Shown: positions 57,370 through 64,000 of the stretch, piece after piece | Position numbering within the stretch: position 1 is the first letter of the stretch | Layout of the letters: each line of letters opens with the position of its first letter | NCBI GenBank assembly: GCA_019637115.1 | Contig: JAHBWH010000025.1 | Location: 1 to 64,000 of the forward strand | Direction of reading: 5' to 3' | DNA length: 64,000 bases | Source of the DNA: Myxococcales bacterium | GTDB taxonomy: Bacteria > Myxococcota_A > Polyangia > Polyangiales > Houyiibacteriaceae | The notes under the pieces: model-generated | What the model saw: the letters and a program-made list of their open reading frames with translations, nothing else | Databases searched by the model: none | Told to the model about the DNA's origin: nothing | Translations under genes and position numbers: made by a program

Positions 57370-59253
57370 TCAATACCCTGAACCAGTCCCAACGTGACCG
57401 AACTGGTCACCCTCGGTCTGGCCCTCGAGGACCCTCGCAGGGGCGACGGAGAGCCCTGCCGGTGCGCCAAGAAAGATGCTCGCGGTTCCTGCATTCGTAC
57501 GCCCGCGCGGGCTTGCGTTTGGCGCGCCAACGACGAGATCCGCGACCCCATCGCCGTTGACGTCGCCCACATCCACAAGTGACATACCGAAGTGATCCGA
57601 TACTGCACGGCCCCCGAGCACCATGGCTGGTGTCGCTGAGGGACCGACTGCCGATCCAAGGAAGATGCTAGTCGTGCCTACGAAGGTGCGCTCACCGCCG
57701 CCAGGATCGGCGTACGGGGACCCCACAATGACATCGCCGAAGCCATCTCCGTTGACATCTACGCTGGCGAGCGAGAGCCCGAAAAAGTCGTGCGGTACAA
57801 CCCCGGCGAGTACGCGAACCGGCGCAGAGTGGGTGCCTGCGGCCGATCCGAGAAAGATGCTGGCCGTTCCGCCATCCGGGGCACCCACCACGACATCGGC
57901 AAAGCCATCTCCGTTGACGTCGCCTGCACTCGAGACCGAGCCGCCAAATCCTCCAACAGAGTTACCCGCGAGCACTTGGCTCGGGATGGCGGATGGTCCT
58001 GTAGCCGAACCGAGGAAGACACTGGCCGTCCCAAACGAACCGGTTGCCCCGACGACGAGATCGGAGAAGCCATCGCCGTTGACGTCGCCCGCGCTCGCGA
58101 CCGAAACGCCGAAGCGGTCGAACTCAAGAGTCCCCGTTAGGACCCGAACGGGCGTGCTGGAGAGGCCGAGAGCCGAGCCAAGAAAGATGCTCGCCGTACC
58201 TGTGCGGCGACGCCCGCTGCGGTGGGAGTTCGGGGCCCCTACTGCGACGTCGGCAAAACCATCCCCGTTCACATCGCCCACGCCAGCTACGCTCCTCCCA
58301 AAACTGTCGCCCGCGTCACCCTCGCCGCTGCCCGTGAGCACGAGCACAGGAGTCGACGAGAGTCCCGACGACGAACCGAGGAAGATGCTCGCAGTACCCG
58401 CACCGCCGTTGGCCCGCGAGGCACCAACAACGAGGTCGGCGAAGCCGTCACCGTTGACATCTCCCGCGCTTGCCACTGCCTCGCCAAAACGGTCGCCTTC
58501 GGTGACCCCCTCGAGGACCAAGGTCGGGGTCCCCGCAAGGCCATCTGCCGAACCGAGGAAGACACTCACCGCGCCGGCACGTCGGGCGCTTGGAGCGCCA
58601 ACCACGAGGTCGGCAAAGCCATCACCGTTCACGTCGAGCGTGGTGCCCCATCTAGTGTCGACGTCGCCGTCGGCACTCCGGTGACCAACCCAGAACGCCC
58701 ACGTCGGGCTAGCGTCGGGCCCGACCCGGTCTGCGTTTCGGGCACGCACCCTCCAAAACCAGACGCCAGGCATCAAGGGGACTTCAGGGCGGAGGCGGTC
58801 GGTGGTCGCGATCAGGGTTGGGATGCAGCCGGTCACCATCGCGCGGTCCCGACACAACTCGACCTCGCCACCAGTGGCTCCAGCGGCAAGTGACCAAAGC
58901 AACGTGGGCCGCTGGCTGGTGACCGTGCTCGTACTCAAGGGGGCGATCGGCCGAGGTGCTCGGAGGGAAGAGTCGACGACCGGGCCAGCATCGACGGAGG
59001 TACCGCCATCGTCGCCAGCAGCGCGGGCATCGACATCGGAAGCATCGGAAAGGGACGAGTCCGGGCGTCCAGGAGCGAAGATCCGAGAGCCATCTTCTCG
59101 TTCGCAAGTCCAATCGTCGATGAGCACGGTGTCGGGAGGACAAACGCAGCTGCCCCCTCTGCGGATCAACTCTCCGCATGGGTTGTCAGGGAGCCCGCCG
59201 CAAGCCGCGAGATTGAACGACAGGAGACCGATGTACATTAGCCGCGCTCGCAT
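57370..59253 (-). CDS. FG-GAP (integrin alpha-like) repeat lipoprotein
   Basis: A 627-residue exported lipoprotein. ATG at 59253 gives a signal with perfect lipobox (NLAAC-GG). After a Cys-rich segment and a fibronectin-like segment (LRPEVPLMPGVWFWRVRA) come at least seven FG-GAP repeats, seen as DVNGDGFADLVVGAP followed by VFLGSA and a spacer of about 50 residues, each repeat with a Ca2+-binding DxNxDG. These fold as a beta-propeller and usually bind proteins or sugars at the surface. The last repeat stops at FGHVGTGSGY, about half a repeat before the expected end, so the C-terminus may be truncated. A longer frame upstream is probably not translated. Confidence 0.9.
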   Translation of the reverse strand: MRARLMYIGLLSFNLAACGGLPDNPCGELIRRGGSCVCPPDTVLIDDWTCEREDGSRIFAPGRPDSSLSDASDVDARAAGDDGGTSVDAGPVVDSSLRAPRPIAPLSTSTVTSQRPTLLWSLAAGATGGEVELCRDRAMVTGCIPTLIATTDRLRPEVPLMPGVWFWRVRARNADRVGPDASPTWAFWVGHRSADGDVDTRWGTTLDVNGDGFADLVVGAPSARRAGAVSVFLGSADGLAGTPTLVLEGVTEGDRFGEAVASAGDVNGDGFADLVVGASRANGGAGTASIFLGSSSGLSSTPVLVLTGSGEGDAGDSFGRSVAGVGDVNGDGFADVAVGAPNSHRSGRRRTGTASIFLGSALGLSSTPVRVLTGTLEFDRFGVSVASAGDVNGDGFSDLVVGATGSFGTASVFLGSATGPSAIPSQVLAGNSVGGFGGSVSSAGDVNGDGFADVVVGAPDGGTASIFLGSAAGTHSAPVRVLAGVVPHDFFGLSLASVDVNGDGFGDVIVGSPYADPGGGERTFVGTTSIFLGSAVGPSATPAMVLGGRAVSDHFGMSLVDVGDVNGDGVADLVVGAPNASPRGRTNAGTASIFLGAPAGLSVAPARVLEGQTEGDQFGHVGTGSGY

Positions 59254-59541
59254 TGGGAGCCTCGTTCTAGGTTGAGGAGAGGAGATGACTTGTACTCGAC
59301 CGCCTGGCTGCGCAGTTGCGCCCAGTTGAAGGACATCACCGAATCCGGGACAGCCACACGGTGCCACCTGTAAGGGGATGAGCCGATCGCCGGAGTAGAG
59401 TGGTCTTCGCGACCAGCTTCGTCGAGTACTCGTTCTGCTGGACTCTGCATCGCAACTAGGAAACGAGGAGGTGCGGGTCGCGGAGCTGGGTTCATCGGAA
59501 CTCTGGCAAACGCGCGGATGCAGCTCGCTTCTGGAAAAGCT
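59254..59541. other. Intergenic stretch, nothing recognised
   Basis: 288 bases between the FG-GAP lipoprotein start and the thioredoxin-like gene end, both minus strand. It likely holds the FG-GAP gene promoter, but no clear -35/-10 pair, palindrome or terminator is visible. Confidence 0.35.
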
Positions 59542-60502: not shown

Positions 60503-61008
60503 CACGGCGCGCCCTCCCCCCACGCGGCGCGGAGCCGCGCGAGCTCGACCCGCGCCACGACGACGGCGGCGCCGTCGGCGAGCGCTCGGACGGCGTGCGC
60601 CTGCACCGCATCTCGCAGCGCGGCGTGGACGTCGGCCGCGACGCGCGGGCTCGCAGGGGCGAGCTGCTCATCGAGCCACGCCACGAGGTGCGCGCGGGCG
60701 CGCTCGAGCCCGCGTCGACGGGCGCTCTGCCGGCGGGCCGGCCAGCTCCCGATGCGCTCGTCCGGCATGCCGAGGGCGGCCACTTCGATCGCGTCGCCGA
60801 CGACGCGCGGGGCGACGTCGCCCCAAGGGAGCGCCGCGAGCGCCTCCCCCTGAGCGGCCTGAGCGGCCTGCGCGGCCTGCGCTTCGCCCGCGGGCGTTGG
60901 CGCTTCGCCACGCGCCGCAGGTGCCTGTGCTTCGCCAGGCCCCGCGAAGAGCGCGAGCGCCACCGACACGGACGAGCTCAGCGCTCGCGAGCGCACCGGC
61001 ACCCTCAC
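60499..61008 (-). CDS. Exported protein of unknown function
   Basis: A 169-residue protein coupled to guaA by a GTGA overlap (GTG at 61008). A hydrophobic signal-like stretch ([17 protein letters not shown]) is followed by an Ala/Gln-rich repeat ([10 protein letters not shown]) and a helical domain ([34 protein letters not shown]). The MPDERIGSW region has the outline of LPP20-like lipoprotein domains but is not convincing. Frame, overlap and codon bias support a real gene; function unknown. Confidence 0.72.
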
Positions 61009-62546
61009 TCCCACTCGATCGTGGCCGGAGGCTTGGACGAGATGTCGTACACGACGCGATTGCAGCCACGGACCTCGTTGATGATCCGCGAGCTCACCTT
61101 CGCCAGCAGCTCGTGCGGCAGGCGCGCCCAATCGGCGGTCATCCCGTCGCGCGACTCGACCGCGCGGACGGCGATGACCCACTCGTAGGTGCGGCCGTCG
61201 CCCATCACGCCGACCGTCTTCACGGGCACGAGCACGCAGAAGCTCTGCCAGAGCTTCTCGTAGTACCCAGCCGCGCGGACCTCCTCGTCGAGGATCGCGT
61301 CCGCCTCTCGGAGCACGTCGAGCTTCTCCTCGTCGATGGCGCCCGGGCAGCGCACCGCGAGGCCCGGGCCCGGGAAGGGCTGCCGCCAGAGCACGTCGTG
61401 CGGCATGTCCATCGCGGCGCCGACCTCGCGGACCTCGTCCTTGAAGAGGAGGCGCAGCGGCTCGACGAGCTCGAGGTTCATCCGCTCGGGCAGGCCGCCC
61501 ACGTTGTGGTGGCTCTTGATGACCACGCTCGGCCCCTTGAACGACACGCTCTCGATGACGTCCGGGTAGAGCGTGCCCTGCACGAGGTACTTCACGCCGT
61601 CGATGCGCTTGGCCTCGCGGTCGAAGACGTCGATGAAGACCTTGCCGATGATCTTTCGCTTCTGCTCGGGGTCGTCGACGCCCGCGAGCGCGTCGAGGAA
61701 CTCCTTGCGCGCGTCCACGTGGACGATCTCGAGGTCGAGGCGCCCACGGAACATGTCCATCACGCGCTTCGCCTCGTCCTTGCGGAGCAGCCCGTTGTCG
61801 ACGAAGACGCACGTCAGCCGCTTGCCGATCGCCTTGGCGACGAGCACCGCCGCGACGCTGGAGTCGACGCCGCCCGAGAGCCCACAGACCGCCTTGCCGT
61901 CGCCGACCTGGGCGCGGATCGCCGCGACCGACTGCTCGACGAACGAGCCGGGCGTCCAATCCGCCGCGACGCCCGCCACGTCGAAGAGGAACGCGCGCAG
62001 CATCTCGTCGCCGCGCGGCGTGTGCACGACCTCGGGGTGGAACTGCACGCCGAAGATCCGGCGCGAGAGGTCGCCGACCGCCGCGAAGGGGCTGTTCTTG
62101 GTGTGCCCGAGCACCTCGAAGCCCTCGGGGAGCCGCTTGACCCGGTCACCGTGGCTCATCCACACGTGCACGGCCTCGCCCGGCTCGAAGCTCCCGAGCA
62201 GGCCCTCCGGCCGCCCGACGCTCAGCTCCGCCGGCCCGTACTCGCGCTCGTTCGCGGCCTCGACCTCACCCCCGAGCAGGTGCGAGGTGAGCTGCATCCC
62301 GTAGCAGATCCCGAGCACCGGCACGCCGAGCTCGAAGACCCCGCGGTCGACGCTGGGCGCGCCCTCTGCGAAGACGCTCGCGGGGCCACCGCTCAAGATC
62401 ACCGCGGGCGGCTCCAGCGCGCGGATCTCCTCGATCGGCATCGTGCAGGGGTGGATCTCGCAGTAGACGTGCTGCTCACGGACGCGGCGCGCGATGAGCT
62501 GCGTGTACTGGCTTCCGAAGTCGAGGACGAGGACGGGACGCGGCAT
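61005..62546 (-). CDS. guaA: GMP synthase (glutamine-hydrolysing)
   Basis: A 513-residue bifunctional enzyme converting XMP, ATP and glutamine to GMP. The N-terminal class I amidotransferase has [27 protein letters not shown] with the nucleophile Cys, and the His/Glu at [10 protein letters not shown]. The ATP pyrophosphatase domain has [15 protein letters not shown], and the C-terminal dimerisation part ends TIEWE. All canonical. ATG at 62546. It is followed directly by two exported proteins with GTGA junctions and lies 48 bases from the stop of the deiminase-like gene. guaB is not in the window. Confidence 0.98.
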
Positions 62547-62594: not shown

Positions 62595-64000
62595 CTACTC
62601 GCACATCCTCGCGCTCCGGAGATCACCGCACGCTTCGGGAATCGTGGCACACCACGCACCGTTCACGCAGCTCCCCGTGCCTTCGCACCAAGCGCACTCC
62701 GCCGCTGTCCGGCGACATTGCGTCGGGCTCGTCGCCGCCTCGCAGTCGATGCACTGCGCCAGGCGTGTCCAGAGCGCAGTCTCGCACTCGGTCGCGACCC
62801 CGGCCGTGACCGCGACGCAGCCCGTCCCGGGGCACCAGCCGCACCCTTCGAAGCCGACGCCATTGCACTCGCTGCAGCTGGTCGCACGATCGCAACCAGA
62901 CGTCTCGCACCCGCGCTCAGGGTCGCCCCCCGCGAGGCAAACGCACTCCAGGGCGTCGTGGTCGAAGATGAGCTCTCCTCGCTTGGCGACGGGCTCACAT
63001 GGCGGACGCCGCGAGACCTGAGTCATGCAGTGCACCCCGCCGTCGAGGTACCAAGTCATCGTGCCGTTGGTCCACGCGACGCGGCGTCCGACGGCTGCCT
63101 CGAAGGCTCGTCGGAAGGGCGCGAACCCCGGATCTGCGGTTACGACGACGTCATCCAGCCAGACGGCATTGATCATCGAAGGCAGCGCCGACCCACGACC
63201 GAATTGGAGCTCTGGCGCTGGCTGCGTCCGTACACCAGCGTTCGAGAGCGTCACGAGTCCAGGGAGGATGTGCTCATCGAACACGCGGACGTTTCCTCGC
63301 ACGATGAAGTCCGCGAAGCGCGTTCGAAACTCGCCCATATCCGCGATCCCACCACGCGAATTTCGCTTCCACCCGACGCGAGGCAGCGTGCCCGGCAAAC
63401 GGTCCGCACGCGTCAGGTCGAAATCGGCGACTCGATAGGGCGGTCGCTTCGCGGGATCACGAAGGAAATGCGTAATCGAATCGACGATGTCCGACCGTCG
63501 GACGTGGAGCAGCGCGTAGTTCGCGAAGTCGCGTTCCACGGCCAAGACATCCGCCTCTTCGGCCATACGGAGGAGGGCTCGCTGCATCTCCTCCCATTCT
63601 GCGTCCGAGGCCCGCACGATGACCTCGAGCGCCTGAAGAGGATGGGCATAGACGGCCACACCGTCAGCCCGCACGGAGATCCACTCGTCGACGTGCCCTA
63701 CGTGGAGGAAGTCGCTCGGGACGATGAGGCCTCCGCGGCTCAACACCCAGGCCTGCAGCGGCCCCGGCGCCGTGTCGCCAACCAAGAAGCGTCCATTCGG
63801 AAAGCTCTCGATGTTTCCGCCCGCGCCCCCCTGGTCTCCCTGCGGCCCCTCGGCCGCGCCGAGCAACCCGAGGAACGGATAGCGCTCTTCCATCGCCAAC
63901 GCATCCACGCTCAGTGTCCTTCGCTGAGGCGTGTCCCACACCGCGGTCGTCCTTGCGCGGGTCCCGTCGTCTCGCTCGAGCTCGACCTCGACGAACTCCA
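62595..64000 (-). CDS. Protein-arginine deiminase (PAD)-like protein with Cys-rich tail, 5' partial
   Basis: A secreted-looking protein whose 5' end lies beyond the window (frame open through base 64000). The visible part shows the C-terminal catalytic domain of vertebrate-type PADs: GGNIESFPNGRFLVGD, HVGHVDEWISV (His and Asp of the active site, near 63693 and 63687), LPSMINAVWLDD, and TWYLDGGVHCMTQVSRRPP with the catalytic Cys (codon 63027-63029). These align in order and spacing with PAD sequences I recall (VGHVDE, GEVHCGTN). A further catalytic Asp and the N/M domains would lie upstream. A tail of about 110 residues with roughly twenty Cys (SCSECNGVGFEGCGWCPGTGC) follows, reminiscent of PSI-type domains. 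PADs convert peptidyl-arginine to citrulline, Ca2+-dependently. Confidence 0.85.
   Translation of the reverse strand, partial: EFVEVELERDDGTRARTTAVWDTPQRRTLSVDALAMEERYPFLGLLGAAEGPQGDQGGAGGNIESFPNGRFLVGDTAPGPLQAWVLSRGGLIVPSDFLHVGHVDEWISVRADGVAVYAHPLQALEVIVRASDAEWEEMQRALLRMAEEADVLAVERDFANYALLHVRRSDIVDSITHFLRDPAKRPPYRVADFDLTRADRLPGTLPRVGWKRNSRGGIADMGEFRTRFADFIVRGNVRVFDEHILPGLVTLSNAGVRTQPAPELQFGRGSALPSMINAVWLDDVVVTADPGFAPFRRAFEAAVGRRVAWTNGTMTWYLDGGVHCMTQVSRRPPCEPVAKRGELIFDHDALECVCLAGGDPERGCETSGCDRATSCSECNGVGFEGCGWCPGTGCVAVTAGVATECETALWTRLAQCIDCEAATSPTQCRRTAAECAWCEGTGSCVNGAWCATIPEACGDLRSARMCE

Follow-up and report, generated by a model that had tools for sequence, protein, structure and literature searches.

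Discussions of protein citrullination usually treat it as an animal modification that was brought in from cyanobacteria. For protein-arginine deiminases (PADs), the reported frequencies are 11% in cyanobacteria and 0.43% in 'Proteobacteria', and the catalytic and substrate-binding residues, together with calcium sites 1 and 3, are conserved in all the PADIs examined (PMC8826395). Another bacterial PAD, from Streptomyces (WP_064069847.1), citrullinates a peptide and works in RiPP biosynthesis, acting on the citrulassin lasso peptides (PMC12971885). A search of the open-access literature returned no description of a PAD with a PSI-like tail or of myxobacterial PADs.

Here we analysed a stretch of 64,000 nucleotides (the window) from a myxobacterium, a host that a first-pass annotation of the same DNA had named rightly, focusing on a reading frame annotated there as a vertebrate-type PAD with a Cys-rich, PSI-like tail. 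Frame, motifs and tail were all confirmed, on the minus strand. The in-window portion (62595..63998, minus strand) has an open 5' end, as the annotation had pointed out, and the 1,002 bases that lie between the window edge and the end of the contig at 65,002 complete it to an intact frame of 663 amino acids (G000:C168:62595-64586, minus strand), whose 3' 70% (residues 197-663) occupies 62595..64000. The predicted protein, a single divergent sequence from a draft MAG, begins with MRALRWGLAWLVLGCSS and consists of a lipoprotein signal, a linker rich in Asp, Glu and Pro, a PAD catalytic domain (PAD_C) running to RRPP at residue 529 (in-window part 63000..64000, minus strand, recognised by HMM and hhalign matches to PADs) and the Cys-rich tail.

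Scanning of the 663-residue protein with the Pfam and NCBIfam models gave no PAD match, PF03068 being silent even at E<=10, so that a routine Pfam check would miss the PAD relationship. The Pfam search proposed in the first-pass annotation failed in this respect, while the assignment itself was recovered by profile comparisons. An HMM of 46 other Myxococcota PADs scored the protein at 18.7 bits (E 2.6e-8), against a best value of 2.6 bits when its catalytic part was shuffled 1,000 times. In hhalign the protein alone matched ten canonical myxobacterial PADs with 94.8% probability (E 4.8e-8), and a two-row profile, in which it was paired with its best relative across 379 genomes of the phylum, matched the same ten at 98.6%. 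This relative, a 409-residue lipoprotein from another MAG (L015, included among the 46 PADs and left out of the ten), matches PF03068 at 4e-17 and, among PDB sequences, human PAD1 at 7e-8 and serves as a bridging homologue. The two-row profile retrieved 24 PDB sequences, all human PAD1-4 and nothing else (best E 2e-7), and within the phylum mainly PAD loci that PF03068 also finds, with a few weak PPAD-type matches. On the basis of the phylum-specific HMM, the profile-profile scores and the bridging homologue, the predicted protein is classed as PAD-like, on a divergent branch, and not as a canonical PF03068 member.

A collection of genome contigs yielded no match to the single sequence; the two-row alignment recovered from it L074 (MAG G321) and L075 (Bacteriovoracaceae), both of which were retained as divergent relatives. 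No PAD relative was found in a collection of viral contigs, and no full-length orthologue in any collection searched. A phmmer search of the PDB with the single sequence matched the Cys-rich tail to scorpion toxins, a chance result that was rejected as an effect of composition. AlphaFold modelling of the in-window fragment from a three-row alignment gave a pLDDT of 32, and the five-bladed alpha/beta propeller of PADs is a putative fold here. L015 and L074 (409-416 residues, JAFDDA010000174.1) are the closest relatives found, with 35-37% identity in the best segments; both share with the 663-residue protein a lipoprotein built on PAD_C only, without PAD_M, and the Cys motif GG[VI]HC, but they have no Cys-rich tail, a shorter stretch after GHVDE and a PF03068 match of 62.7 bits. 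L075 (2775-4424, plus strand), from a family of predatory bacteria, matches PF03068 at 44.7 bits, has a signal peptide as well as a long insertion behind GHVDE, and is cut by the contig end.

The family requires Asp-His-Asp-Cys in the order W-x-QD, GHVDE and [VI]HC, and these four catalytic residues are present, in this order, as D194, H298, D300 and C520. The upstream Asp, which had been proposed as a check on the assignment, was found in QQIWTQDVMEF, five bases past the window edge (codon read from the contig at 64005-64007, minus strand). VGHVDEW and GGVHCMTQVSRRPP read as annotated earlier: the former contains GHVDE (residues 297-301, 63684..63698, minus strand) with H298 and D300, and the latter carries C520 in G516-G517-V518-H519-C520 (63027..63041, minus strand). 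The H, D and E columns of GHVDE, all kept here, and the H and C columns of the Cys motif are 100% conserved in the 46 PADs. When columns at least 85% identical across the aligned PADs were counted as highly conserved, 32 of 64 proved to be kept, every catalytic one included; the kept positions comprise W191, Q193, D194, E197, G257, N258, E260, G265, R266, L294, V296, H298, D300, E301, N473, G516, H519, C520 and R526. The conserved His of the Y-H-x-x-GEVHC segment is replaced by Tyr513 and the Glu of GEVHC by Gly517.

By alignment to PAD4 we take Q193, E197 and E260 to be the side-chain ligands of calcium 1, E260, in the GN-x-E motif G257-N258-I259-E260 (63807..63818, minus strand), being aligned with PAD4 E411. 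The protein likewise retains the equivalents of D350, H471, D473 and C645, as do vertebrate PAD1-4 (PADI) and the clade-Ai cyanobacterial PADs; it differs from them in having neither PAD_N nor PAD_M, in not keeping the calcium 2 ligands E351 and N373 (PAD4 numbering) and in being an exported lipoprotein. PAD4 R372 aligns with Gln221 and R374 probably with Arg223, in a region where the alignment is uncertain. The RRPP ending of PAD_C is a further shared feature, with RRKP in PAD4. PAD_M (PF08527) was not found in the 663-residue protein at E<=10. Several canonical relatives escape this Pfam model too, which makes the motif columns a stronger criterion for PAD_M, and at most of the D/N columns that precede PAD_C, conserved at 96-98% in the relatives, the protein has gaps. 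These columns are likely the calcium loops of PAD_M, and with such ligands absent calcium activation may differ or be lost. The locus departs in this way from the PADIs described in PMC8826395, keeping calcium site 1 without a recognisable PAD_M. The description as a vertebrate-type PAD holds for the catalytic domain, which is not of the PPAD/agmatine-deiminase type, but the protein is not a copy of the three-domain vertebrate enzyme.

The first-pass annotation had described bacterial homologues of vertebrate PADs as chiefly cyanobacterial, a view contradicted by the sampled Myxococcota. PF03068 PADs (loci L017-L046 and L056-L073) occur in 94 of the 379 genomes, and in 65 of the 237 better ones, a prevalence above the 11% reported for cyanobacteria (PMC8826395), and most of them have a lipoprotein-like start. 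Lipoprotein PADs thus seem to be widespread in the phylum, at a quarter of the sampled genomes. The canonical myxobacterial PADs inspected end 14-30 residues after the catalytic Cys and all lack a tail, which is missing also from mammalian PADs, as had been correctly noted. Canonical myxobacterial and actinobacterial PADs share with the 663-residue protein the catalytic motifs, the calcium 1 ligands and, in most of the myxobacterial ones, a lipobox N-terminus; they match PF03068 strongly and have a domain with conserved D/N calcium-loop residues before PAD_C, whereas our protein escapes PF03068, has no such loops and bears the tail in addition. The PAD class and its export are ordinary in Myxococcota, and divergence, domain loss and tail are what is unusual here.

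A phylogenetic tree, which took in no cyanobacterial or animal PADs, had as outgroup PPAD/agmatine-deiminase-type proteins from three Myxococcota genomes (G224, G306 and G342), which were profile matches that proved to be of that type. The 663-residue protein fell on the PAD side of a branch with 100/100 support, although the deep alignment is rough, with a terminal branch of 2.58 changes per site and no supported position among the PADs. PPAD/agmatine-deiminase-type proteins with signal-like starts were seen in other Myxococcota (L096:709-1929, plus strand; L097:425-1756, plus strand, with a clear lipobox; L098:313-1353, minus strand), so that Myxococcota may have exported members of both guanidine-modifying types. 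A full-length PAD relative in G268 (L056:478-2385, plus strand) scores 224 bits against the PAD profile; the W-x-QD, GHVDE and HC motifs were not found in it, and it is likely a dead PAD.

The search for a signal peptide, also suggested earlier, returned a lipoprotein signal. The N-terminus, MRALRWGLAWLVLG followed by C15 and SS, has the pattern of a positively charged start, a hydrophobic stretch, the lipobox LVLG-C15 and Ser at +2. The lipobox Cys column is common to 96% of the aligned PADs, and the lipobox pattern is found at the aligned position in 34 of 48, our protein included, indicating that anchored PADs are common in Myxococcota. Export, implied by the annotation as a secreted deiminase, is borne out by the signal, and the predicted protein is better read as lipid-anchored than as secreted, with putative lipidation and membrane location.

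The Cys-rich tail (residues 546-663, 62598..62951, minus strand) comprises 118 residues with 19 Cys, arranged in two PSI-like units, the first of which (residues 565-608, 62763..62894, minus strand) is the best stretch for Pfam PF01437. Its PSI-like nature is supported: the tail alone scored 24.2 bits against a cut-off of 23.1 (the full protein reached 16.4 bits, below cut-off), and all eight homologous tails matched PSI at E<=1, with 14 Cys invariant across them. The Cys spacing and the CGWC core are those of the PSI domain; the tail differs in being a tandem pair with the closing signature C-x-x-IP-x-x-C-x-x-x-x-x-x-R-x-C, strong only in this genus. In the same genome, homologous tails with 39-59% identity were found in at least six other exported proteins. 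Four large trypsin-like proteins (L048-L051) end in such a tail, a lipoprotein with a C-terminal HNH-like domain (L047) has it internally, and in an M12B-like metalloprotease (L052) it precedes a MYXO-CTERM-like end. Across the order, strong tail matches were confined to this genus, and 12 of 184 genomes had a match when weaker PSI-like ones were counted. The tail had been annotated as a feature of the PAD; it is indeed present, but it is not PAD-specific, being shared with proteases and an HNH-type protein. It is a module traded among exported enzymes, with the PAD-like protein as one carrier. A role as sorting signal was rejected as first choice, given the mid-protein position in L047 and the MYXO-CTERM-like end that follows the tail in L052.

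The gene lies between guaB and guaA. The latter (GMP synthase, 61005..62546, minus strand) is the downstream neighbour and starts 48 bp after the stop of the PAD-like gene, and the 3' end of guaB is about 260 bp upstream (contig 64846-65002, outside the window). In relatives (L112, L114, L117, L119, L122) guaB and guaA are direct neighbours, roughly 50-100 bp apart and without a PAD gene; in a genome of the same genus (G001) guaB is divergent from guaA, no such gene lies between them, and no PAD of this kind was found. We interpret the PAD-like gene as having been inserted between two housekeeping genes in this lineage, since the relatives and G001 lack it there, and we draw no functional link to purine metabolism from this setting. 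Its GC3 is 0.785 compared with 0.965 for guaA; since another lipoprotein gene in the window stands at 0.673, composition does not decide the question of horizontal transfer. The guaB of G001 (L111, G001:C671) is inverted relative to guaA; in most relatives the two genes run head to tail.

Taken together, the product is likely an exported, lipid-anchored guanidine-modifying enzyme of the PAD (PF03068-type) branch, which would convert arginine to citrulline with the help of calcium 1 and carry its double-PSI-like tail as a stalk or binding module. The sequence, its domain homology, the conserved motifs, the signal pattern and the shared tail are direct observations; lipidation, membrane location, catalysis, calcium need, substrate and tail function are inferred. 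Signal peptidase II would cleave before Cys15, leaving a lipoprotein that, with Ser at +2, probably resides in the outer membrane. In the folded PAD_C, Cys520 would act as nucleophile and His298 as acid/base, with Asp194 and Asp300 holding the guanidinium; arginine side chains in peptides or proteins would be hydrolysed to citrulline and ammonia along the thiouronium route that is usual for PADs, and calcium bound at the conserved site formed by Q193, E197 and E260 may help to order the active site. The most likely substrate would be protein or peptide arginine outside the cell, on the bacterium's own surface or on prey; with regard to the action on prey or host proteins that the first-pass annotation had proposed, we likewise infer it as a candidate role. 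The tail, probably disulfide-bonded, would form an extracellular stalk or binding module of a kind reused on other exported enzymes.

Among the other explanations, a PAD-descended enzyme that has ceased to act on proteins, and would instead deiminate one dedicated peptide or some small guanidino compound, is suggested by the loss of the R372 equivalent, the strong divergence and the missing PAD_M, and the Streptomyces citrulassin enzyme gives a reported case in which a PAD of bacteria has one small peptide as its target (PMC12971885). We consider it unlikely, as PADs of the phylum are mostly lipoproteins outside the cytosol, where RiPP tailoring is less natural, the tail resembles a module for extracellular contacts, and the gene is flanked by guaB and guaA instead of a biosynthetic cluster. 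The fast evolution of the protein, with conservation relaxed outside the active site, is also consistent with a catalytically dead or binding-only surface protein whose working part is the tail, and a PAD-like protein without catalytic motifs (L056) exists in the same phylum. This explanation appears rather improbable to us: the four catalytic residues and the calcium 1 ligands have been kept in a fast-evolving protein in which half of the conserved columns have otherwise changed, a pattern that speaks for selection on catalysis.

An agmatine deiminase or Porphyromonas PPAD-type protein (PF04371), with PAD likeness arising by convergence on common guanidine-modifying motifs, is very improbable, although GGVHC resembles the GGGxHC of that family and hhalign gave a weak match (37%, confined to the last 60 residues) to three PPAD/agmatine-deiminase-type proteins. 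The PAD match at 94.8% contrasts with this value; PF04371 matches two other genes of the genome (C99 and C3) but not the 663-residue protein at E<=1; and W-x-QD and VGHVDE are of PAD type, whereas the PPAD type has W-x-RDNGP and GH-x-DG, as in L096-L098. The tree points the same way, within the accuracy of its rough deep alignment. Grouping with these deiminases, which the first-pass annotation had named as evidence against its assignment, was not observed.

The lipid-anchored citrullinating enzyme that we favour may be extended, as a speculative possibility, to a PAD_C-only, surface-tethered form that the reusable double-PSI module would aim at extracellular proteins of prey or of the bacterium's own surface, as part of a modular extracellular protein-processing kit; the same module sits on trypsin-like and metalloprotease-like exported enzymes of the organism, and the shared tail ties the PAD-like protein to this set. 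The PAD fold may be able to function as a lone catalytic domain, with no calcium-sensing PAD_M module, and the 663-residue protein lends itself naturally to testing which elements of calcium regulation PADs require.

Some further observations concern the tail-bearing proteins and their surroundings. The four trypsin-like proteins of this genome (L048:2045-4804, L049:2895-5729, L050:160-3123 and L051:2-2608) are each encoded by one uninterrupted ORF, a layout repeated in relatives (L053:3899-6646 and L054:1935-4466). All six begin with a trypsin-like protease and have in mid-protein a hydrophobic, Arg-rich, MYXO-CTERM-like segment; a second lipobox comes immediately after it, then a DLDGDG/EF-hand-like domain and lastly the Cys-rich tail. 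They look like two surface proteins fused via a membrane hairpin; the NCBIfam models 'invert_tail' (lipo-invert) and MYXO-CTERM match them weakly, below cut-off. The HNH-like nuclease domain of L047 (1502-4207, minus strand) corresponds to PF14279 at 23.7 bits, also below cut-off. Within the window, the protein encoded at 57370-59367 (minus strand) has a signal-like start; several DVNGDGFADLVVGA (FG-GAP, integrin-like) repeats and a Cys-rich stretch were also seen in it.
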